From assembly GCF_012863495.1 (NCBI RefSeq), contig NZ_JAAVJL010000001.1, forward strand, positions 3,529,501-3,593,500: DNA of 64,000 nucleotides, given 5' to 3'. The stretch is from Pseudanabaena yagii GIHE-NHR1 (GTDB taxonomy: Bacteria; Cyanobacteriota; Cyanobacteriia; Pseudanabaenales; Pseudanabaenaceae). The position numbers and the translations under genes are program-made. Shown piece by piece: positions 28,426 through 59,955 of the stretch (its first letter is position 1; each line of letters begins with the position of its first letter). Under the pieces are notes generated by a model that made no database searches, was not told where the DNA came from, and saw only the letters and a program-made list of their open reading frames with translations.

Positions 28426-28476
28426 GCTTCGACTTCGCTCAGCTAGCTTACACCGAGGGCTGAGCGAAGTCGAAGC
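28426..28476. repeat. Hairpin related to the MITE core
   Basis: An 18-bp stem (28426-28443 with 28459-28476) of sequence GCTTCGACTTCGCTCAGC. The same arms form the centre of the MITEs at 35571 and 55764, but the terminal repeats are absent here. Probably a solo or decayed copy. Confidence 0.7.
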
Positions 28477-38057: not shown

Positions 38058-40388
38058 ATGGCTATGAATCTAGATTCTCGCAAAGGTGGTGTTAAGGCTT
38101 CTCGGTTTTATGGGTTGATGTTTGTGGCTTTGACTGGGATTTTGGGTATGGTGTCGCCGCCCGATTTAGGTTTGATGACGGTTCAGGCGCAAACTACTCA
38201 AGACCGCAAAGCAGAAGCAGATCGGCTACTTAATCAAGGAAATCAGCAATATCAAATTAGCCAGTTTGAGCAAGCATTTCAGTCATATCAACAAGCACTG
38301 AATATCTATCGCGAAATTAAATTTAGACAAGGAGAACTGTGGGCATTAGGAAGTACAGGAATCGTTTACCAAGCTCTCGGCAAATATGACAAAGCGATCG
38401 AGTTCCTAGAACAAACCCTAGCGATCGCGCGGGAAATCAAAGACCGTCTCGGCGAGGGACAGTCGCTGGGAAATCTGGGACTCGCTTACCGAAACCTCGG
38501 CAAATATGACAAAGCGATCGAGTTCCATCTGCAAAGCATAGAAATCGCGCGGGAAATCAAAGACCGTAGCGGTGAGGGAAATGCGCTGGGAAATCTGGGA
38601 CTCGCTTACTATTCGCTCGGCAAATATGACAAAGCGATCGAGTTCCAACTGCAAAGATTAGCGATCGCGCGGGAAATCAAATACCGTAGTGGCGAAATGT
38701 ATGGTTTGCATAGTTTAGGTTATGCCTATAGATCGCTAGATCGAGATCGCGAAGCAATGATTTCTTTTCAACAGGCATTGACCATTGCTAGAGAGATTGG
38801 AGATCGAAGTATCGAAGGTTATGCACTCGCAAATCTAGGAAATGTACTCTCCAAAGCAAAACGCTCCGAACTTGCGATTCTCTTTTACAAACAATCGATC
38901 AACATCCGCGAAGCGATCCGCAAAGACATCAGCAAACTCGATAAAGACATCCAAAAATCCTATTTAGCAACTGTCGAAGATACCTATCGCAACCTCGCCG
39001 ATCTCCTACTCAAACAAGACCGTATCCTCGAAGCCCAACAAGTCCTCGACCTGCTCAAAGTCGAAGAACTCAACGAATATCTCCGCACCCCCACTCGCAG
39101 CAGCCAAACCGAGCAAGGAACCGAACTGCGAAATCAAGAAAAACAATTTATCGCTCTTGCCCTCGAACTCGACGAACTGCAAAAGCGCAAACTCGCCAAT
39201 AACATCACCGCCGCCGAACAAGAAAGGCTGAATAAACTCGTCAAATCCGAACAAGAGCAACAAAATCAATTCATCGCCTTTCTCGATAGTGATCCTGTTC
39301 AAAAACTGGTCGAAGAACTGCGCCTCAAGGAAAGACAACAAAACGTCGATATTACCAACAACTTTCAAAATCTCCGCACCGATATTCTCAGCAAATATCC
39401 CAATGCCGTTCTCCTCTATCCCCTCATCCTCGAAGATCGCCTCGAACTAATTCTAGTTACCGCCAAAACCACCCCGATCCGCCGCACCATCAACATCAAA
39501 CGCGAAAAACTCAATCAAGAAATTGCCGATTTTCTAGCAGGACTCAGAGACTCAGGCTCTGAAGATGTCAAACAACCTGCTCAGCAATTACATACATGGC
39601 TAATCAAACCCTTTGAAACAGAACTAGCCGAACTAAAAATCGACACGATCATCTACGCCCCCGATGGACAGTTGCGCTATATTCCTCTCACGGCTCTCAA
39701 TGACGGCAAACAATGGCTAGTTGAAAAATATCGCGTCAATAACATCACCGCCGCATCTCTGACTAAGTTCAATAAGCCACCGATCGCTACACCCAAGATC
39801 TTTGCAGGAGCATTTGGCAACGTCAAGCAGCAAGGATTTTCAGGATTGCCCGCCACTCTAACAGAAGTCAAAAAAATCGCTGAACGCTTTCCCAATACCA
39901 GCACCTTTGTCGAAACAGCCTTCACCAAAGAAATAACTACCACCAACTCCAATTCCTACACCATTCTCCATCTCGCCACCCACGGCAAACTCGCAATTGG
40001 CGACCCAAAAAATTCCTTCATAATCTTTGGTGATGGCGAAAAAGCGACAATTTCTGATATTCGCAAATGGGCTTTAACCAATGTGGACTTAGTGGTATTG
40101 AGCGCCTGTCAGTCTGGACTAGGAGGCAAGCTAGGTTCAGGTGTCGAGATCTTGGGATTGGGCTATCAGATGCAAGCCGCAGGTGCGAGGGTAGCGATCG
40201 CATCGCTCTGGTTAGTCAATGATGAGGGTACACAAGCATTGATGACTGCTTTTTATAGTGAACTGCAAAAAGGCAATGTCACGGTTACGGAAGCTTTACG
40301 CAGAGCGCAAGTTGCTCTGATTAAATCGCCGAAATATAATCATCCTAATTATTGGTCAGCATTCTTTGCGATCGGTAATGGTTTGTAA
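38058..40388 (+). CDS. Exported TPR-CHAT putative cysteine protease 1
   Basis: A 776-residue protein. An N-terminal hydrophobic segment (about 20-45, ending TVQAQT) predicts export. TPR units of exactly 40 residues follow (about 50-330), of the form LGNLGLAYRNLGKYDKAIEF. A linker with long charged helices (about 330-450) leads to a CHAT domain (about 460-776), the caspase-like fold. The catalytic dyad is intact: His642 in HLATHG and Cys684 in LSACQSG. The substrate is unknown. It is the first of three adjacent paralogues. Two composite repeats lie just upstream. Confidence 0.88.
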   Translation: MAMNLDSRKGGVKASRFYGLMFVALTGILGMVSPPDLGLMTVQAQTTQDRKAEADRLLNQGNQQYQISQFEQAFQSYQQALNIYREIKFRQGELWALGSTGIVYQALGKYDKAIEFLEQTLAIAREIKDRLGEGQSLGNLGLAYRNLGKYDKAIEFHLQSIEIAREIKDRSGEGNALGNLGLAYYSLGKYDKAIEFQLQRLAIAREIKYRSGEMYGLHSLGYAYRSLDRDREAMISFQQALTIAREIGDRSIEGYALANLGNVLSKAKRSELAILFYKQSINIREAIRKDISKLDKDIQKSYLATVEDTYRNLADLLLKQDRILEAQQVLDLLKVEELNEYLRTPTRSSQTEQGTELRNQEKQFIALALELDELQKRKLANNITAAEQERLNKLVKSEQEQQNQFIAFLDSDPVQKLVEELRLKERQQNVDITNNFQNLRTDILSKYPNAVLLYPLILEDRLELILVTAKTTPIRRTINIKREKLNQEIADFLAGLRDSGSEDVKQPAQQLHTWLIKPFETELAELKIDTIIYAPDGQLRYIPLTALNDGKQWLVEKYRVNNITAASLTKFNKPPIATPKIFAGAFGNVKQQGFSGLPATLTEVKKIAERFPNTSTFVETAFTKEITTTNSNSYTILHLATHGKLAIGDPKNSFIIFGDGEKATISDIRKWALTNVDLVVLSACQSGLGGKLGSGVEILGLGYQMQAAGARVAIASLWLVNDEGTQALMTAFYSELQKGNVTVTEALRRAQVALIKSPKYNHPNYWSAFFAIGNGL

Positions 40389-40461
40389 ATATCGAGCGAT
40401 CGCACCCAAATATCTGTGAGGATAACGGCAGATGATTTGTTGAGATGGCGAAACAAGGACA

Positions 40462-42993
40462 ATGAATAAGGGTTTAAGTATTGTAATTGCGACGTTATTA
40501 GTTAGTTTACCCATACAGGCGCAGATCAGCGAGTTTGCCCAAGCCCAATCAGCACAAGATCGGAAATCAGAAGCCGACAGATTGCTGGACTTAGGCAATC
40601 AGCAATATAACAAGAGCTACTATCAAGAATCCATTCAGTCATACCAATCCGCCTTAGAAATATACCGCACTCTCAAAGATAGTAATAACGAAGGTAGCAC
40701 CCTTAATAACTTGGGCAATGTCTATTACAGCCTCGGACAATATCAAAAAGCACTGGATTTTTATCAGCAGTCCTTAGCCATCTTGCAACAAACTGGCGAT
40801 CGCCAAGGTGAAGGAACGGCTCTCAATAATCTCGGTGAAGCCTACAGAATGCTCGGACAATTTCAGAAAGCGATAGACCTTTACCAGCAGTCTTTAGTTA
40901 TCAAAAAGCAAATTGGCGATCGCAAAGGTGAAGGAACCTCACTGGGTAATTTGGGGAATGCCTATAACAGTCTGGGACAGCATCAAAAAGCAATCGAATT
41001 TTTTCAGCAGTCTTTAGCAATCAAAAAGCAAATTGGCGATCGCGATGGTGAAGGAAGTTCGCTCAATAATCTCGGACTTGCAGCTTACACATTGGGACAG
41101 TACCAACAAGCTAGCGACTTTTTCCAGCAGTCCTTAGCAATAGCCAGACAAACAGGCGATCTAGATAGTCAAGGCTATTCTCTGATTGGATTGGGCAATG
41201 TTTACAACAGTATCGGGCAGTACCAACAAGCTAGCGTATTTTTTCAACAGGCTTTGACTATCTTTCATCAAACAGGCGATCGCAATGGTGAAGGTAACTC
41301 GCTCAATAATCTGGGACTTGTATCTAGCAATCAAGGACAATATGAGCAAGCAATTGCTTTTTACCAAAAGTCCTTAGGTATCTTTCGGCAAATTGGCGAT
41401 CGCAATGGACAAGGAATTGCACTCAATAATTTGGGCGCAATATTCAACAAACTCAAACAGCCCGAACTTGCCATTCTCTTTTACAAGCAATCGGTGAATG
41501 TGAGGGAATCCATTCGCAAAGATATTCGTGGACTTGGGAAGGAAGAACAAAAATCCTATTTAGATACGATTGCAGGTTCCTATCGCAACCTTGCTGATTT
41601 GCTCTTACGACAAGACCGCATCCTCGAAGCTCAGCAAGTTCTCGACTTACTGAAAGTTCAAGAACTTAGTGATTACCTTCAGAATGTGCGGGGTAACTCT
41701 CAAACCGCCCAAGGGATTGATCTCCAAAATCCCGAACAAAATCTCATCGCTCTTGCTAATGAGTTGAATATCCTGCAAAGAAAAGATCGGGAAGGTAAAC
41801 TCAATGAGACTGAGCAGCAACGCCTTACTCAACTTGTACAATTGGAACGCGATCAAAACAAACAATTTAATGCCTTTCTAAATAGTCCCGAAGTACAAAA
41901 ACTGATTACGGAACTACGCCGTACCGAGCAACAACAAAATATTAATCTCGCCAATTATCGCAAGCTCCAAAAAGATGTACTCACGCAAATGCCTAATGCT
42001 GTGATGCTCTATCCCATGATCCTTGGCGATCGCCTTGAGTTAGTCCTGATCAATGCCAAGACTCCACCACTGCACCGCACGGTCAAAATCAGTCGGGAAT
42101 TGCTCAACCAAGAGATTAGCAATTTTTTGTCTGGACTGAGAGATGCTAGTGCCGATGACGTTAAAGAGCCAGCCCAAAAGTTTTATGGATGGCTGATCAA
42201 GCCCTTTGAGACAGAATTAGAACAACTCAAAATCGATACGATTATCTATGCTCCCGATGGGCAATTGCGCTATATTCCCCTGTCGGCTCTCTATGATGGT
42301 AGACAATGGGTAGCCGAGAAATATCGAGTTAATAACATTACCGCAGAATCTCTGACTTCCTTTATCCCCAAACCTCTTGCTCAACCGAAAATCTTCGCTG
42401 GCGCATTTGGTGGACAAGCTGGCGATCGCAAGAGGGCAGGATTTGAGGGACTACCCGCCACGATTACTGAGGTGCAAAAAATCGCTAGCCGTTTCCCAAA
42501 TACAACTACGCTTACGGAAGATGCGTTTAGCAAAACCGCTACGGAAACTAGAGCCAACTCCCATACAATCCTCCATTTAGCCACACATGGCGAGCTATCG
42601 GTAGGCACACCTGAGGATTCTTTTATTCTCTTTGGCAATGGCGACAAGGCTACTATTAGCGAAATTAAGGAATGGTCACTGAGTAATGTTGATTTGGTGG
42701 TTCTCAGTGCTTGTCAAACTGGAATCGGTAAAAAGTTAGGGAATGGTGTAGAGATTCTCGGCTTGGGCTATCAGATGCAATCGGCAGGTGCGAGAGTGGC
42801 GATCGCTTCACTCTGGAAGGTTGATGATGCGGGGACGCAGGCTTTAATGGAAGCATTTTATGGTGAACTCAAAAAAGGCGATGTTCCTGTGGCTGAGGCA
42901 TTACGCAAAGCACAGGTTACTCTCATTCACTCTGCAAAATATAAACATCCTAATTATTGGTCGGCATTTTTTGCGATCGGGAATGGGTTGTAG
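40462..42993 (+). CDS. Exported TPR-CHAT putative cysteine protease 2
   Basis: An 843-residue paralogue of the upstream gene, 73 bases after it. A signal peptide (about 1-20, ending IQAQI) is followed by about eight 40-residue TPR units of the LGNVYYSLGQYQKALDFYQQ type. The CHAT domain (about 520-843) has His709 in HLATHG and Cys751 in LSACQTG. The 120-bp DNA units carry GGCGATCGC at almost every unit boundary. The C-terminal halves of paralogues 1 and 2 are more alike than their TPR arrays. Confidence 0.88.
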   Translation: MNKGLSIVIATLLVSLPIQAQISEFAQAQSAQDRKSEADRLLDLGNQQYNKSYYQESIQSYQSALEIYRTLKDSNNEGSTLNNLGNVYYSLGQYQKALDFYQQSLAILQQTGDRQGEGTALNNLGEAYRMLGQFQKAIDLYQQSLVIKKQIGDRKGEGTSLGNLGNAYNSLGQHQKAIEFFQQSLAIKKQIGDRDGEGSSLNNLGLAAYTLGQYQQASDFFQQSLAIARQTGDLDSQGYSLIGLGNVYNSIGQYQQASVFFQQALTIFHQTGDRNGEGNSLNNLGLVSSNQGQYEQAIAFYQKSLGIFRQIGDRNGQGIALNNLGAIFNKLKQPELAILFYKQSVNVRESIRKDIRGLGKEEQKSYLDTIAGSYRNLADLLLRQDRILEAQQVLDLLKVQELSDYLQNVRGNSQTAQGIDLQNPEQNLIALANELNILQRKDREGKLNETEQQRLTQLVQLERDQNKQFNAFLNSPEVQKLITELRRTEQQQNINLANYRKLQKDVLTQMPNAVMLYPMILGDRLELVLINAKTPPLHRTVKISRELLNQEISNFLSGLRDASADDVKEPAQKFYGWLIKPFETELEQLKIDTIIYAPDGQLRYIPLSALYDGRQWVAEKYRVNNITAESLTSFIPKPLAQPKIFAGAFGGQAGDRKRAGFEGLPATITEVQKIASRFPNTTTLTEDAFSKTATETRANSHTILHLATHGELSVGTPEDSFILFGNGDKATISEIKEWSLSNVDLVVLSACQTGIGKKLGNGVEILGLGYQMQSAGARVAIASLWKVDDAGTQALMEAFYGELKKGDVPVAEALRKAQVTLIHSAKYKHPNYWSAFFAIGNGL

Positions 42994-43025
42994 ACAGTAT
43001 GCGATCGCGATTACTTTTTGGGCTT

Positions 43026-43085
43026 CTGTGGCTTCGACTCCGCTCAGCCAACGTTAGCTGAGCGGAGTCGAAGCTAGATAACTTT
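43026..43085. repeat. Truncated MITE copy
   Basis: The 18-bp arms GCTTCGACTCCGCTCAGC (43031-43048) and inverse (43057-43074), plus the flank CTAGATAACTT, match the core of the MITE at 55764. Both terminal repeats are missing. It lies against the broken 5' end of the DUF2887-like gene. Confidence 0.75.
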
Positions 43086-43109
43086 TTTTGCTACGAGCGA
43101 TCTCAATAG

Positions 43110-43586
43110 AAGGAAACCATCGCCTTAGCACATCAGTTGGCTAATCGCGTGGGGCAAGGCGATCGCGAGAGGATGATAGAATTTATTGAGACAGTTTTGC
43201 TGTACAAGTTTCCCAAAATGAGTCGAGAGGAGGTTGAAGCGATGTTTACGTTAGGTGATCTCAAGAAAACAAGGGTTTATCGTGAAGCAAAGCTTGAGGG
43301 CAAGCTTGAGGGTAAACTTGAAGGCAAGCTTGAGGGCAAACTTGAGGGCAAGCTTGAGGGTGAAAAGATTGGGACGCAGCGCGGTCAGGTTTTGGGGCTA
43401 AGGCAGTTTGCTGTAAAGTTGTTGACGCGGAAGTTTGGTAAGGTGGCGCTGAAGACGGTTAAGCGTCTAGACAAGCTATCGGCTGAGCAGTTGGAGGAGT
43501 TGGCGGAGGCGGTGTTGGATTTTGAGAAGGTGGCGGATTTGGAGGCGTGGTTGGCAAGTAAAAAGGAAAAATCCATCGTTAGGTAG
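43110..43586 (+). pseudogene. 5'-truncated DUF2887/DUF4351 (Rpn-like) gene
   Basis: The frame is open from about 43110, where a TAG lies just upstream. It reads LAHQLANRVGQGDRERMIEFIETVLLYKFPKMSREEVEAMF, which matches the C-terminal third of DUF2887 proteins, then six KLEG repeats and a DUF4351 tail (LLTRKFGKVALKTVKRLDKLSAEQLEELAEAV). The N-terminal nuclease domain is missing, cut at a truncated MITE. A shorter protein could start at TTG 43137 or ATG 43173 (preceded by GAGAGG). Confidence 0.7.
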
Positions 43587-43761
43587 GGGTCAAGCATTTG
43601 CGCCACAATGTTTAAACTCCTCACAAAAAATCTCGATCCGCAAATGCTTAACCCTCTTTGCTCTCGCCGATAAATTGTGGCTGCGTTGTGAGGTTTGGGC
43701 GAAGCATTACCGTTTGATGATCTCGATGATATGCGTAGATGGTGGCGGTAATGCTTCGCCC
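43587..43761. repeat. Composite element copy 2, both modules
   Basis: Module 1 has arms 43587-43602 and 43639-43654 (GGGTCAAGCATTTGCG type). Module 2 has exact 15-base arms GGGCGAAGCATTACC at 43697-43711 and inverse at 43747-43761. Between the modules lies CTCTTTGCTCTCGCCGATAA, conserved with copies 1 and 3. Confidence 0.8.
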
Positions 43762-43875
43762 CTACGGGGAATTGGTGGATTTTGGCTATGTTTTTTGTAT
43801 CGCCTGTTTTGGGGAATATCGCTTTATGCTGGCTGGTATGTAACTGAGGGTTTTGATGTAAATGTGAGGATATAG

Positions 43876-46404
43876 GTGATGAATAAGGTTGTTGGTATTG
43901 CGATGTTGACTTTTTTGGCTTGTGGGCAAGTGCAGATAATGATGAGCGAAAGCATCCAATCCCAAACAACACAAGACCTCAAAGCAGAAGCATATCGACT
44001 TTTACAACAAGGAATTCAGCAATATCAAATCAGCCAGTTTGAGTCAGCATTTCAGTCATGGCGGCAAGCTTTAACAATCTATCGGGAAATCAAAGACCGC
44101 TTCGGTGAGGGAAATGCACTGGGAAATCTGGGAGTTGCTTACCGTTCCCTCGGTAAATATGACAAAGCGATCGAGTACCAACTGCAAAGCTTAGCGATCG
44201 CGCGGGAACTCAAAGACCGTCTCGGTGAGGGAAATGCGCTGGGAAATCTGGGAAACGCTTACCTTTCCCTTGGCAAATATGACAAAGCGATCGAGTTCTA
44301 TCTGCAAGACTTAGCAATTGCACGGGAACTCAAAGACCGTCTCGGCGAGGGACAGTCACTGGGGAATTTGGGAAATGCTTACCGAAACCTCGGTAAATAT
44401 GACAAAGCGATAGAGTACCAATTGCAAAGGTTAATGATTGCGCGGGAACTCAAAGACCGTCTCGGTGAGGGACAGGCGCTGGGAAATCTTGGAAATGCTT
44501 ACTATTTCCTCGGCAAATATGACAAAGCGATCGATTACCTACAGCAAGTCTTAGCGATCACGCGGGAAACTAAAGATCGTCTCGGTGAGGGACAGTCATT
44601 GGGAAATTTGGGAAATGCTTACCGAGACCTTGGCAAATATGATAAAGCGATAGAGTACCAACTACAACACTTAGAGATAGCACGGGAAATCAAAGACCGT
44701 CTCGGTGAAAGAACGTCTATAGGAAATCTGGGACTCGCATACTATTTTCTTGGCAAGTATGAAAAAGCGATCGAGTTCCATTTGCAAAGTTTAGCAATCG
44801 CGCGGGAACTTGAAGACCGAAGCGGCGAAATGATTGGTCTGAATAATTTAGCCGTTGCCTACGAAAAACTAAATCGATATCGAGAAGCAATGATTTCTTA
44901 TCAGCAAGCTTTGACCATTGCTATAGAAATTGGAGATCGAAATGTCAAAGGTTATGCTCTCGCCAATCTAGGAGATTTACTCTCCAAAGCAAAACGCCCC
45001 GAACTGGCGATTCTCTTTTACAAACAATCGATCAACGTCCGCGAAGCGATCCGCAAAGACATCAAAAAACTTGATAAAAGCATCCAAAAATCCTATCTTT
45101 CCACTGTCGAAGATACCTATCGCAGTCTCGCTGACCTCCTCCTCAAACAAGACCGCATCATGGAGGCGCTACAAATCCTCGACCTTCTCAAAGTCCAAGA
45201 ACTCGAAGACTATTTCAAAAATATTAAAGGTAGTGATCGCTCAGCACAGGGGGTGAAACCTTTAGCACCAGAGCAATCCCTCAGCGATAAGCTTTTAGCT
45301 GTTAGCTTGGATAATAGCCAAGAAATCAATACTCAACTTGCAAATCAAATTCAACAACTTCCTAAATCCGAAATTAACCAAGTTCCTCAATATCTCAACC
45401 AAATCCCACAGGGCAACGTCCTACTCTATCCCTTCATCTTAGGCGACAGACTAGAACTCATTCTCTTTGCACCCAATACATTACCAATTCATCGCACAGT
45501 TGTTATCAAACAAGATGAGCTAACTGCTTTAATTACAGAACTCCGCTCAGTACTGCCAGATCAATATTCGGAAGACTTTAGAGAACCATCGCAGAAACTC
45601 TATAAATTGCTGATTAAACCCATTGAAAGCGAACTTATCAATAATAAAACCACCACTATTCGTTATGCTCCTGATGGTATTTTGCGATATATCCCCCTTG
45701 CTGCCCTCTATGACGGTAAACAATGGCTAGTAGAGAAATATCGGATTAGTAATCTCATCGCCTATAGCCTTAGTGATTTTAGTCCTCAGCCCCAAATAGA
45801 GCCAAGCATTCTCGCGGGAGCCTTTGGTGGTAAAGCAGGCGAGAGAAAATTTGGACAGGAACCATTACCTGCGACAATTGCCGAAGTTCGTATGATTGCT
45901 AAAACATTACCAAACTCCAACACCCTCGAAGAAAATGCCTTTAGTCGTCAAGCCACAGAAAGAGACTTAAAACAGCACAGCATCCTCCACCTTGCGACCC
46001 ATGCCGAATTTAATACAGGTAGTCCCGACAACTCACGGATCTTCTTTGGTAATGGCGATATCCTCAAGTTGCGCGAAATCTCTGACCTATCCCTGCAAAA
46101 TATTAACCTAATCGTATTGAGTGCCTGCCAAACAGGTTTAGCGGGATATAGTGATGGGATCGAAATTTTGGGTTTTGGTTATCAAGTCCAAAAGGCAGGT
46201 GCAAAACAGGCGATCGCTTCTCTCTGGTCTGTCAATGATGAAGGTACTCAAGCATTAATGGAAGCATTTTATAGTGAACTCAAAAAAGGCGATGTTACAC
46301 CTACCGAGGCATTACATAGAGCGCAAGTTGCGCTGATTAAATCAGCAAACTATAGTCACCCTAGCTACTGGTCAGCTTTTTTTGCGATCGGTAATGGTTT
46401 GTAA
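43876..46404 (+). CDS. Exported TPR-CHAT putative cysteine protease 3
   Basis: An 842-residue third paralogue. A short signal peptide (about 1-30) is followed by about nine 40-residue TPR units (about 38-400) of the form LGNAYRNLGKYDKAIEYQLQ. The CHAT domain (about 530-842) has His709 in HLATHAEF and Cys751 in LSACQTG. The TPR units are near-identical at DNA level over six or seven consecutive copies. The start is ATG 43876, and an in-frame alternative lies one codon downstream. It is separated from paralogue 2 by the MITE core, the broken Rpn gene and a composite repeat. Confidence 0.88.
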   Translation: MMNKVVGIAMLTFLACGQVQIMMSESIQSQTTQDLKAEAYRLLQQGIQQYQISQFESAFQSWRQALTIYREIKDRFGEGNALGNLGVAYRSLGKYDKAIEYQLQSLAIARELKDRLGEGNALGNLGNAYLSLGKYDKAIEFYLQDLAIARELKDRLGEGQSLGNLGNAYRNLGKYDKAIEYQLQRLMIARELKDRLGEGQALGNLGNAYYFLGKYDKAIDYLQQVLAITRETKDRLGEGQSLGNLGNAYRDLGKYDKAIEYQLQHLEIAREIKDRLGERTSIGNLGLAYYFLGKYEKAIEFHLQSLAIARELEDRSGEMIGLNNLAVAYEKLNRYREAMISYQQALTIAIEIGDRNVKGYALANLGDLLSKAKRPELAILFYKQSINVREAIRKDIKKLDKSIQKSYLSTVEDTYRSLADLLLKQDRIMEALQILDLLKVQELEDYFKNIKGSDRSAQGVKPLAPEQSLSDKLLAVSLDNSQEINTQLANQIQQLPKSEINQVPQYLNQIPQGNVLLYPFILGDRLELILFAPNTLPIHRTVVIKQDELTALITELRSVLPDQYSEDFREPSQKLYKLLIKPIESELINNKTTTIRYAPDGILRYIPLAALYDGKQWLVEKYRISNLIAYSLSDFSPQPQIEPSILAGAFGGKAGERKFGQEPLPATIAEVRMIAKTLPNSNTLEENAFSRQATERDLKQHSILHLATHAEFNTGSPDNSRIFFGNGDILKLREISDLSLQNINLIVLSACQTGLAGYSDGIEILGFGYQVQKAGAKQAIASLWSVNDEGTQALMEAFYSELKKGDVTPTEALHRAQVALIKSANYSHPSYWSAFFAIGNGL

Positions 46405-57200: not shown

Positions 57201-59171
57201 ATGCTAAAAAATTTTCAATGGCTAAAACCGCTATTTCCTAAATATCTCTTGCAGCAATTGACAGAATTAAAATTGCCAAGATTCCGATCTACATTTGTCA
57301 GTAGCGCAATTATTTTGGGGATGCTCTACGGAGTCAGGCAGCTAGGGGGACTGCAACAATTAGAGCTAGTGGTTTTTGATCAGATGATACGATCGCGTCC
57401 AGACAAAGTAACCGATCCGCGATTGTTACTGGTCACGATCACCGAAAGCGACATCAAACAATACAAATGGCCCCTAACCGATCGCCTTGTCGCGCAGACC
57501 TTAACAGAACTAAATCGGTATCAACCCGCCGCGATTGCCGTAGATCTCAATCTTCAGCGTAATATTCCCATTGAGCCAGATCGCAGTGAACTAATTGCCC
57601 AATTGCGTCGCCCCAATGTGATTGCCGCAGTTAGCAATGGCAATAATCAAAATGATCGCATCGATCCGCCCATTGAGCTACCCAAAGAACAGGTTGGTCT
57701 AGTTGATCTGCCTGCCGATCCTGATGGTTTTATGCGGCGGGTGTTGCTATTTACCAATCGCGCTTCTTTATCGATTCAATTGCTCAATGCTTATTTGCGA
57801 GCAGACTGTCCCCGCGATCGCCCACAGCGTCAGGATTTAGTTTGTCAAAATCTCAAGCCCTCGTTTAATTCCAAAAAAGAATATGAATTGGGAGGAGTGG
57901 TATTTCCTCTTTTAAAGTCAGATTCTGGAGCTTATCAAACGATTAATAGTGGCGGTTATCAAATTCTGATTAACTATCGCGGTTCATCCCAATCTTTGCA
58001 GCGCGTCACGCTCTCCCAAGTCCTGCAAAAAGAAGTAAATCCTGATTTGATTAAAGGAAAAATCGTGCTGATTGGTGTAAGTGCGCCTAGTCTCAAGGAT
58101 ATTTTTTTAACTCCTTATAGTTCCGCAACTGAGGGAACTGTGAGAATGGCAGGAGTGGAAGTTCAAGCGCATATTACCAGTCATTTGCTTGGTGCAGTGC
58201 TAGATGGCGATCGCCTGTTTTGGTTTTGGGCGGAGTGGCAAGAGCTTTTATGGATGTTGATTTGGGCGATCGCAGGGATTAGCTTAACTTGGAGTATTCG
58301 CAAACCGCTTATTTTAATCCTCAGCGAACTTCTATTTCTATTAATCTTATTGGGATTTAGCTATGTTCTATTTTTGCAACAGGGTTGGATTCCTGTGGTT
58401 GCTCCTGCATTGGCGTTTGGGCTAGCGAGCCTTACCACCTTGATTGATCGCCAATATCAGCTTCAACAACAGCAACAAATGATGATGCGGCTATTGGGTC
58501 AACAGACTTCACCAGCGATTGCCAATGCACTTTGGGAAGGACGCGATCGCCTGTTGCAGTCTGGTCGATTACCTTGGCAAAATGTGACCGCAACAGTTCT
58601 GTTTACGGATATTAAGAGCTTCAGTACGATCGTGGAAGGAGAATCGCCAGAACGGGTGATGGGCTGGCTCAATGAATATCTGACAGTGATGGCGGATGTG
58701 GTGCAGTCGCATCAGGGCGTGGTGAATAAGTTTATTGGCGATAGTGTGATGGCGGTGTTTGGTGTGCCGATCGCCCTTCAACAACAGGCGGAAATTGCCA
58801 CGGATGCGCGGCGATCGGTGGCTTGTGCCTTGGCAATGCGATCGGCGCTAATGGAATTAAATCAGCGTTTTGAGCAGCAGGGATTGTCCAAAATTGAGAT
58901 GCGGGTGGGAATTTTTACGGGAGCGGTGATGGTGGGCAGTTTGGGCGGTAAGAGTCGTTTGGAATATGGGGTTATTGGCGATACGGTAAATATTGCGTCA
59001 CGGCTAGAGTCCTGTGAGAAGGAGCGTCAAGAGGAAGACTGTCGCATTTTAATTGCACAGGAAACACTGGATTATTTAGAAGATCTCTATGATGTGGAAA
59101 GTTGGGGAGCAGTATTTTTAAAGGGTAGGGTGCAGGCAGTGCAGGTTTATCGCTTAATTGGACATCGGTAG
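57201..59171 (+). CDS. CHASE2-domain class III adenylate cyclase
   Basis: A 656-residue membrane receptor. An N-terminal membrane helix (about 30-50) leads to a CHASE2 sensor domain outside the membrane (about 52-345), three membrane helices (about 350-412) and a cytosolic cyclase domain (about 455-620). Metal-binding Asp470 in FTDIKSFS and Asp514 in GDSVMAVFG are present, and Lys510 in NKFIGD with the GDTVNIASRLES segment fits ATP rather than GTP. Product cAMP is the inference. The gene is followed 100 bases later by a secreted DUF928 gene. Confidence 0.9.
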   Translation: MLKNFQWLKPLFPKYLLQQLTELKLPRFRSTFVSSAIILGMLYGVRQLGGLQQLELVVFDQMIRSRPDKVTDPRLLLVTITESDIKQYKWPLTDRLVAQTLTELNRYQPAAIAVDLNLQRNIPIEPDRSELIAQLRRPNVIAAVSNGNNQNDRIDPPIELPKEQVGLVDLPADPDGFMRRVLLFTNRASLSIQLLNAYLRADCPRDRPQRQDLVCQNLKPSFNSKKEYELGGVVFPLLKSDSGAYQTINSGGYQILINYRGSSQSLQRVTLSQVLQKEVNPDLIKGKIVLIGVSAPSLKDIFLTPYSSATEGTVRMAGVEVQAHITSHLLGAVLDGDRLFWFWAEWQELLWMLIWAIAGISLTWSIRKPLILILSELLFLLILLGFSYVLFLQQGWIPVVAPALAFGLASLTTLIDRQYQLQQQQQMMMRLLGQQTSPAIANALWEGRDRLLQSGRLPWQNVTATVLFTDIKSFSTIVEGESPERVMGWLNEYLTVMADVVQSHQGVVNKFIGDSVMAVFGVPIALQQQAEIATDARRSVACALAMRSALMELNQRFEQQGLSKIEMRVGIFTGAVMVGSLGGKSRLEYGVIGDTVNIASRLESCEKERQEEDCRILIAQETLDYLEDLYDVESWGAVFLKGRVQAVQVYRLIGHR

Positions 59172-59271
59172 AATTTGTGGCAAGAAAATTATATTTCATC
59201 ATCAGATCATGTAAATTTGATGACATCAAATTTACATCGTTTGTTTGTGCTGGATGCCACCCCATAAATTC

Positions 59272-59955
59272 ATGAAAATTCTTCGTCAGAATAGGTTTCT
59301 TAGGACAATGGCACTAATGGCTTTTGTAATTGGTGCAATGCCAAGCCAGTTACTCACAGCACAAACTATTCCCATTTACGATCCACCACCACCAACCGAT
59401 CCAACGATACGCGGCAATAATTGCTCTACAGTTACGCCTGAATTATTGTCTCCTGTGTCGAAGAAGGTGTTCACCACGGCTGACTATCCAACATTTTTGT
59501 TAGTTGTGCCAACCACAACAGCTCGTCAGGCAAAGTTTTCAATTCGCGATCGCGATCGCAAGTCAATTTATCGACAGACCTTTAGTTTGTCAGGTCAGTC
59601 GGGAATTTTGCGGGTGGTGTTACCGAATGAAGCTAACATCAAAAAGCTTGATGGGGGACAAATCTATAAATGGGAATTTAATATCATTTGCGATCCTGAT
59701 AATCGCGGCATTGATGATTTTGTGGTGGGTGAGTTGCAAAAGGTTACTCTGCCTGATGCTAAGTCTCCATCTCAGTTGACTTTATGGGAGCGATATAGAG
59801 CGTTTGAGTACGATGCTTTGATGGTCTTAGATTTGTTGCGCCGAACTAATCCTAGAGATCAATTAATTCAGTCTGAGTGGGAGTCGTGGTTAGTGCGTCA
59901 CAAGTTCGGCGATTTGAAAGGATTGCCAGCGATCGTATTAAAATCGCAAAAGTAA
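59272..59955 (+). CDS. Secreted DUF928-family protein
   Basis: About 227 residues with a signal peptide (about 1-27, ending LLTAQT). The body has the family parts LLSPVSKKVFTTADYPTFLLVVP and YKWEFNIICDPDNRG, beta-rich and extracytoplasmic. Function unknown. In many cyanobacteria DUF928 genes sit next to CHASE2 and CHAT genes, as here. The start is placed at 59272; the upstream frame lacks a signal. Confidence 0.8.
   Translation: MKILRQNRFLRTMALMAFVIGAMPSQLLTAQTIPIYDPPPPTDPTIRGNNCSTVTPELLSPVSKKVFTTADYPTFLLVVPTTTARQAKFSIRDRDRKSIYRQTFSLSGQSGILRVVLPNEANIKKLDGGQIYKWEFNIICDPDNRGIDDFVVGELQKVTLPDAKSPSQLTLWERYRAFEYDALMVLDLLRRTNPRDQLIQSEWESWLVRHKFGDLKGLPAIVLKSQK

Follow-up and report, generated by a model that had tools for sequence, protein, structure and literature searches.

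Three neighbouring TPR-CHAT genes of Pseudanabaena yagii encode predicted exported proteins with an intact separase-like His/Cys dyad

Three neighbouring open reading frames (ORFs) on the plus strand of Pseudanabaena yagii GIHE-NHR1 (termed here P1, P2 and P3) encode proteins of 776, 843 and 842 aa within the 64,000-nucleotide stretch of DNA that was analysed (termed the window). An initial annotation had described each as carrying an N-terminal export signal, a TPR array and a CHAT domain; all three lie where it had placed them and have these parts, the signal being of Sec type and the CHAT domain C-terminal. The component features, by window position, are:

38058..40388, +, P1, predicted exported TPR-CHAT protein, 776 aa (ORF call, Pfam; AF2 pLDDT 82.5)
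38058..38189, +, P1 predicted signal peptide, cleavage after A44 (VQA|QTTQ) (rule set; AF2 pLDDT below 50 for residues 1-45)
38196..38930, +, P1 TPR array, helices 47-291 (Pfam, AF2)
39573..40379, +, P1 CHAT domain, with the His642 codon at 39981-39983 and the Cys684 codon at 40107-40109 (Pfam, alignments)
40462..42993, +, P2, predicted exported TPR-CHAT protein, 843 aa (ORF call, Pfam)
40462..40545, +, P2 predicted signal peptide, cleavage after A28 (AQA|QSAQ) (rule set)
40573..41511, +, P2 TPR array, 40-aa units (Pfam, repeat analysis)
42166..42984, +, P2 CHAT domain, with the His709 codon at 42586-42588 and the Cys751 codon at 42712-42714 (Pfam, alignment)
43876..46404, +, P3, predicted exported TPR-CHAT protein, 842 aa, GTG start (ORF call, Pfam)
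43876..43959, +, P3 predicted signal peptide, cleavage near residue 28 (site preferred by the rule set: residue 17)
43981..45057, +, P3 TPR array, 40-aa units, with up to 84% DNA identity between successive units (Pfam, repeat analysis)
45583..46395, +, P3 CHAT domain, with the His709 codon at 46000-46002 and the Cys751 codon at 46126-46128 (Pfam, alignment)

The matches to the CHAT profile PF12770 score 203 bits for P1 (E = 9e-60), 194 bits for P2 (5.8e-57) and 213 bits for P3 (1.1e-62), all above the Pfam gathering cut-off of 24 bits, and the three domains are 57-73% identical in pairwise comparisons. The order of parts is signal, TPR and CHAT, with the TPR array starting at about residue 45, directly behind the signal (Pfam; AF2). 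PADLOC and NCBIfam searches of the triplet returned nothing beyond unspecific TPR matches and, for P1 and P3, weak hits to BovA; promoter and terminator scans scored no better than shuffles. Its neighbours--a PIN domain gene, a truncated DUF4351 gene, two small unknown genes and glgA--provide no pointer to a substrate.

The origin of the triplet was judged on a maximum-likelihood tree of CHAT domains, where P1 clusters with a protein from another cyanobacterium (L094), P2 with Phormidium tenue and Pseudanabaena proteins, and P3 with a same-genome paralogue located 550 kb away. A single local tandem duplication is ruled out by this placement of the members in different clades; the genes are adjacent and paralogous, as first described, but they are not one another's closest relatives. 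P3 and its closest paralogue are 91-97% identical at the DNA level over most of the CHAT part versus 73-87% in the TPR and linker, a contrast that fits one gene conversion event of the catalytic domain. (This paralogue, at L046:2245-5916 on the minus strand, has an interruption of about 1.1 kb near its 3' end, with the final CHAT residues encoded on the far side of the insert.) The paralogues differ chiefly in TPR number and sequence, and hence probably in recognition. When the same cluster was sought in relatives at the locus marked by glgA and the two small genes, four CHAT ORFs were found in the closest relative (G002) and one in each of two others (G004 and G009); none occurs within the stretches fetched from G003, G005, G008 and G010, and for other relatives some contigs do not extend far enough to decide. 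Among congeners CHAT copy number at the locus ranges from 0 to 4.

The catalytic dyads recovered here--H642/C684 in P1 and H709/C751 in both P2 and P3--are intact and agree exactly with those first annotated. The His and the Cys are invariant across 24-35 aligned relatives from several phyla; likewise invariant, in 35 aligned relatives, are a second His, the LS preceding the Cys, and a downstream Trp and Asp. The position of the dyad relative to the CHAT active site was checked by comparing the CHAT profile with PDB sequences, which puts it on H585 and C627 of Csx29, the published catalytic residues of that protein (PMC9729208). The matches in this comparison are the Craspase TPR-CHAT chains and DdvA, the latter being the best sequence match to the triplet CHAT among solved chains. 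Similarly, the AF2 model of P1 (mean pLDDT 82.5) matches Csx29, DdvA and separases in Foldseek. Over pairs of P1-P3 and relatives the CHAT dN/dS is 0.05-0.16, figures that are rough because most pairs are close to saturation at synonymous sites; judged from these comparisons, the CHAT domain is under strong purifying selection.

Export was assessed with a home-made rule set that looks for a positive n-region, an uncharged hydrophobic core and an A-x-A-like site, all of which P1, P2 and P3 satisfy from their annotated starts. A piece-by-piece search of the genome for CHAT ORFs found 38, which divide into 27 strong and 11 weak matches. The rules are passed strictly by 19 of the 27 strong CHATs and, with alternative starts, by 23; three that the rules miss have N-termini that look signal-like by eye, so that by rules and eye together 26 are exported or probably exported. 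The one remaining (C4:228101) has a P-loop-like start and lacks both motifs used to scan for the dyad. In controls, the same rules passed 6.9% of composition-matched shuffles and, strictly, 0/11 of the genome's weak CHATs; because they also pass 31% of the remaining ORFs in the loci that were fetched, where envelope genes abound, they are weak on their own. The predicted cleavage site of P3 is ambiguous: it lies either near residue 28 or at a weak lipobox-like FLAC at residue 16, a motif (C16) that is absent from its closest paralogue. In all three proteins the signal peptide is the sole transmembrane segment.

Cysteine content provides a second line of evidence. After residue 45, P1, P2 and P3 contain one Cys each--the catalytic Cys--where about six would be expected. 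Within this genome the frequency of Cys per 100 aa after residue 45 is 0.26 for exported CHATs, 1.09 for cytosolic-type CHATs and 0.82 for background ORFs, and other genomes show the same division (0.26 versus 0.82). Together with the fusions between TPS adhesins and CHAT domains found in relatives (see below), this depletion backs export independently of the signal rules; hence the extracytoplasmic location that was initially proposed for the triplet is, as far as sequence can indicate, well supported by all three.

These data bear upon the possibility that P1-P3 are Craspase-like or gasdermin-type defence proteases of the cytosol whose signal peptides have been mis-called. The fold and domain order are indeed those of Csx29 from the type III-E Craspase (PDB 8eey, 7y8t, 7y9x), in which an N-terminal TPR region is likewise followed by a C-terminal CHAT domain with an aligned His/Cys dyad. 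Csx29, however, is cytosolic, Cas7-11-bound and RNA-activated, whereas P1-P3 have signal peptides, retain a single Cys, and have neither Cas7-11 nor Csx30 among the annotated neighbours of the triplet; indeed, in agreement with the initial annotation, no cas gene of any kind was seen among the annotated neighbours examined. Given, in addition, that 26 of the 27 strong CHATs have signal-like N-termini and that the genome's 11 cytosolic-type CHATs form a separate, low-scoring set, a cytosolic role is hardly credible.

Exported CHATs are, moreover, widespread. CHAT genes are present in 27 of 29 relatives, with up to 40 in a single relative, and, when GTDB genomes were scanned, exported TPR-CHAT ORFs were detected in members of Cyanobacteriota, Acidobacteriota (including Blastocatellia), Bacteroidota, Chlorobiota, Cloacimonadota, Planctomycetes (Scalindua) and Chromatiales--about seven phyla altogether. 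Nearly all of these ORFs contain both dyad-scan motifs, the Cys motif being unmatched in Scalindua. The suggestion that the triplet represents a different kind of protease system therefore stands insofar as an intact dyad is predicted outside the cytoplasm, but not as something special to the window.

DdvA, a Myxococcus xanthus transmembrane anti-sigma factor (PDB 8rot, 8rw5), points in two directions. It resembles P1-P3 in combining TPR and CHAT and in having both H and C, but it is a membrane-tethered regulator, whereas P1-P3 have no anti-sigma part and no second transmembrane segment. From its anti-sigma role, the TPR-CHAT part of DdvA probably lies outside the inner membrane, so that an extracytoplasmic CHAT domain would have a precedent, and one whose structure has probably been solved already. 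At the same time, DdvA keeps the dyad residues and yet is described as an anti-sigma factor; by analogy, a dyad can persist in signalling proteins, which argues against a protease reading. P1-P3 might then be exported sensors or scaffolds in which CHAT binds peptides or proteins and relays a signal with little or no cleavage, as it perhaps does in DdvA, the CHASE2 cyclases near some exported CHATs being signalling partners. In keeping with this, DdvA is among the top matches both by sequence and by fold, 4 of 11 CHASE2 genes have a strong CHAT no more than 10 kb away, and an antiphage island is under the control of DdvS (PMC12288465), taken here to be the partner sigma factor of DdvA. A sensor or scaffold would, however, fit poorly with an invariant dyad in a CHAT domain under strong purifying selection, with retention of the catalytic Cys while every other Cys has been lost, and with the lack of any membrane segment apart from the signal peptide, and we consider it unlikely.

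Clues to a possible substrate come from relatives of the triplet. Each of the genome's four TPS exoprotein genes is followed on its own strand, 3.6-6.4 kb downstream, by an exported CHAT gene, and the genome's four strong TpsB genes share loci with these TPS genes; one such locus brings together TpsB, TpsA, CHAT, DUF928 and CHASE2-GGDEF genes. Across six genomes, a strong CHAT lies within 10 kb of 24 of 41 TPS genes, compared with a chance expectation of 3-9% per gene, and all 24 are downstream and on the same strand; after tandem TPS genes are collapsed by hand, 22 of 33 loci have a CHAT versus about 2 expected. In the operons that were read, TPS and CHAT genes either overlap by 13 bp or are separated by about 10-16 bp. 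In one relative (G017) a single exported CHAT gene comes after a tandem run of four or more TPS adhesin genes, with tight spacing throughout (L174:3535-16258, minus strand).

The association extends to fusion. Eight ORFs of 1222-1610 aa, belonging to more distant families, combine in one frame an export-type N-terminus with a TPS domain and, at the C-terminus, CHAT, with HLATH and LSAC intact in all eight. A TPS domain directs passage across the outer membrane via TpsB (type Vb secretion), and the CHAT domain of the fusions is therefore expected at or beyond the cell surface. Thus the statement that the triplet has no obvious substrate is borne out at its own locus but not for its relatives, for which linkage and fusion indicate a clear partner, namely TPS adhesins. 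There is no TPS gene beside the triplet (the genome's four are elsewhere), and TPS-linked CHATs and the triplet form separate clades in the CHAT tree; a function can therefore be carried over to the triplet by kinship only.

Delivery by the TPS route raises the question of whether exported or TPS-delivered CHATs are instead toxin-type peptidases, that is, effectors against other cells. Besides the C-terminal position of CHAT in the fusions and the variable copy number of the locus, caspase-fold domains have been proposed as releasing peptidases or toxins at the C-termini of polymorphic toxins (PMC3482391). No recurring immunity-type gene was seen beside the CHATs inspected, however, and neither the TPR/CHAT layout nor the number of exported copies, 26 in the genome, resembles polymorphic toxin cassettes, which makes an effector role distinctly improbable. 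A further complication is specific to cyanobacteria, in which a Sec signal may also lead to the thylakoid lumen; P1-P3 could thus be lumenal rather than periplasmic or surface proteases. The proteomes of the cyanobacterial periplasm and thylakoid lumen are described as distinct and the sorting rules as only now emerging (PMC12341915). Family members are, however, linked or fused to TPS, OprB and DUF928 genes, which indicates the outer envelope, and exported proteins of this kind are also found in phyla that do not photosynthesise, so that a lumenal location appears very improbable.

Taken together, we favour the interpretation, with a probability of roughly 0.55, that P1-P3 are envelope or surface Cys endopeptidases of the separase-like type (clan CD) that would combine Sec export, TPR recognition and CHAT cutting. 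The signal peptide would carry each protein across a membrane; the TPR superhelix would bind a partner or ligand and thereby position or activate the C-terminal CHAT domain; and the CHAT His/Cys dyad would cut an envelope or surface protein. Because other members of the family are downstream of, or fused to, TPS adhesins, its general job is probably the regulated processing of surface proteins, and the triplet may work in the same way. For the TPS-linked and fused CHATs the adhesin would be the obvious candidate substrate, by analogy both with Bordetella FhaB and with the releasing domains of polymorphic toxins. More tentatively, one can imagine an extracytoplasmic separase-like network shared by cyanobacteria and several other phyla, with dozens of exported TPR-CHATs per genome, some of them delivered by TpsB within an adhesin, that performs ligand-controlled cutting of adhesins and envelope proteins and whose TPR arms diversify even as homogenisation between paralogues can act on the catalytic domain; this seems possible rather than probable.

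The CHAT proteases considered in detail here are intracellular, namely Craspase and those with a proposed role in gasdermin activation, and no description of an exported CHAT protease or of a CHAT-TPS system was found in the open-access literature; likewise, the cyanobacterial exoproteome papers examined name no CHAT protein in their main text. The family has been tied to separase by earlier bioinformatics (PMC9729208); separase shares the fold and dyad of P1-P3 but is eukaryotic, intracellular and securin-regulated. HetF (Alr3546) of Anabaena PCC 7120, the cyanobacterial CHAT/TPR protein from which the domain takes its name, has a different domain order: its CHAT is N-terminal (aa 1-555) and is followed by one TM and then by TPR, and it is a component of the divisome (PMC8406250), whereas P1-P3 run from signal through TPR to CHAT. 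FhaB, a TPS adhesin, is processed by the exported proteases SphB1 and DegP (PMC8263021, PMC6070651); unlike the exported CHATs, these are serine proteases, are not CHAT proteins and are not fused to the adhesin. Were the exported branch proteolytic, this organism's largest CHAT repertoire would act outside the cytoplasm, and TPS linkage and fusion would name a candidate substrate class for it. Caspase/separase-type chemistry would then join the known repertoire of proteases that mature TPS adhesins, and this could help explain the presence of up to 40 CHAT genes in cyanobacteria.

Elsewhere in the window, gene types that recur beside exported CHATs, including TPS-linked ones, precede a further CHAT gene:

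57201-59171, +, CHASE2-nucleotidyl cyclase
59245-59955, +, DUF928 gene
from about 61580, running out of the window, divergent exported CHAT, 1070 aa, located after the CHASE2 cyclase and DUF928 genes

A second outer-envelope association of exported CHATs is the clustering, at L049:4197-12870 (minus strand), of three short members (485-496 aa), in which no TPR was detected, with two SLH-OprB porin genes.

Around the triplet itself, a PIN-domain protein of the toxin-antitoxin type is encoded directly upstream of P1 (37242-37646). Between P2 and P3 lies a DUF4351/DUF2887 fragment (43137-43586) containing a 12-bp repeat that codes for LEGK (43290-43360); this copy looks truncated because it is matched by a 303-aa ORF in G002 (L156:7691-8602). 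Just 3' of P2 there is a palindrome (43029-43076) with a 20-bp stem and GCTTCGACTCCGCTCAGC arms. The arm occurs eight times in the window, versus about 0.01 expected, and these copies form four pairs (at 28426, 35600, 43031 and 55804), which marks the palindrome as a dispersed REP-like element.
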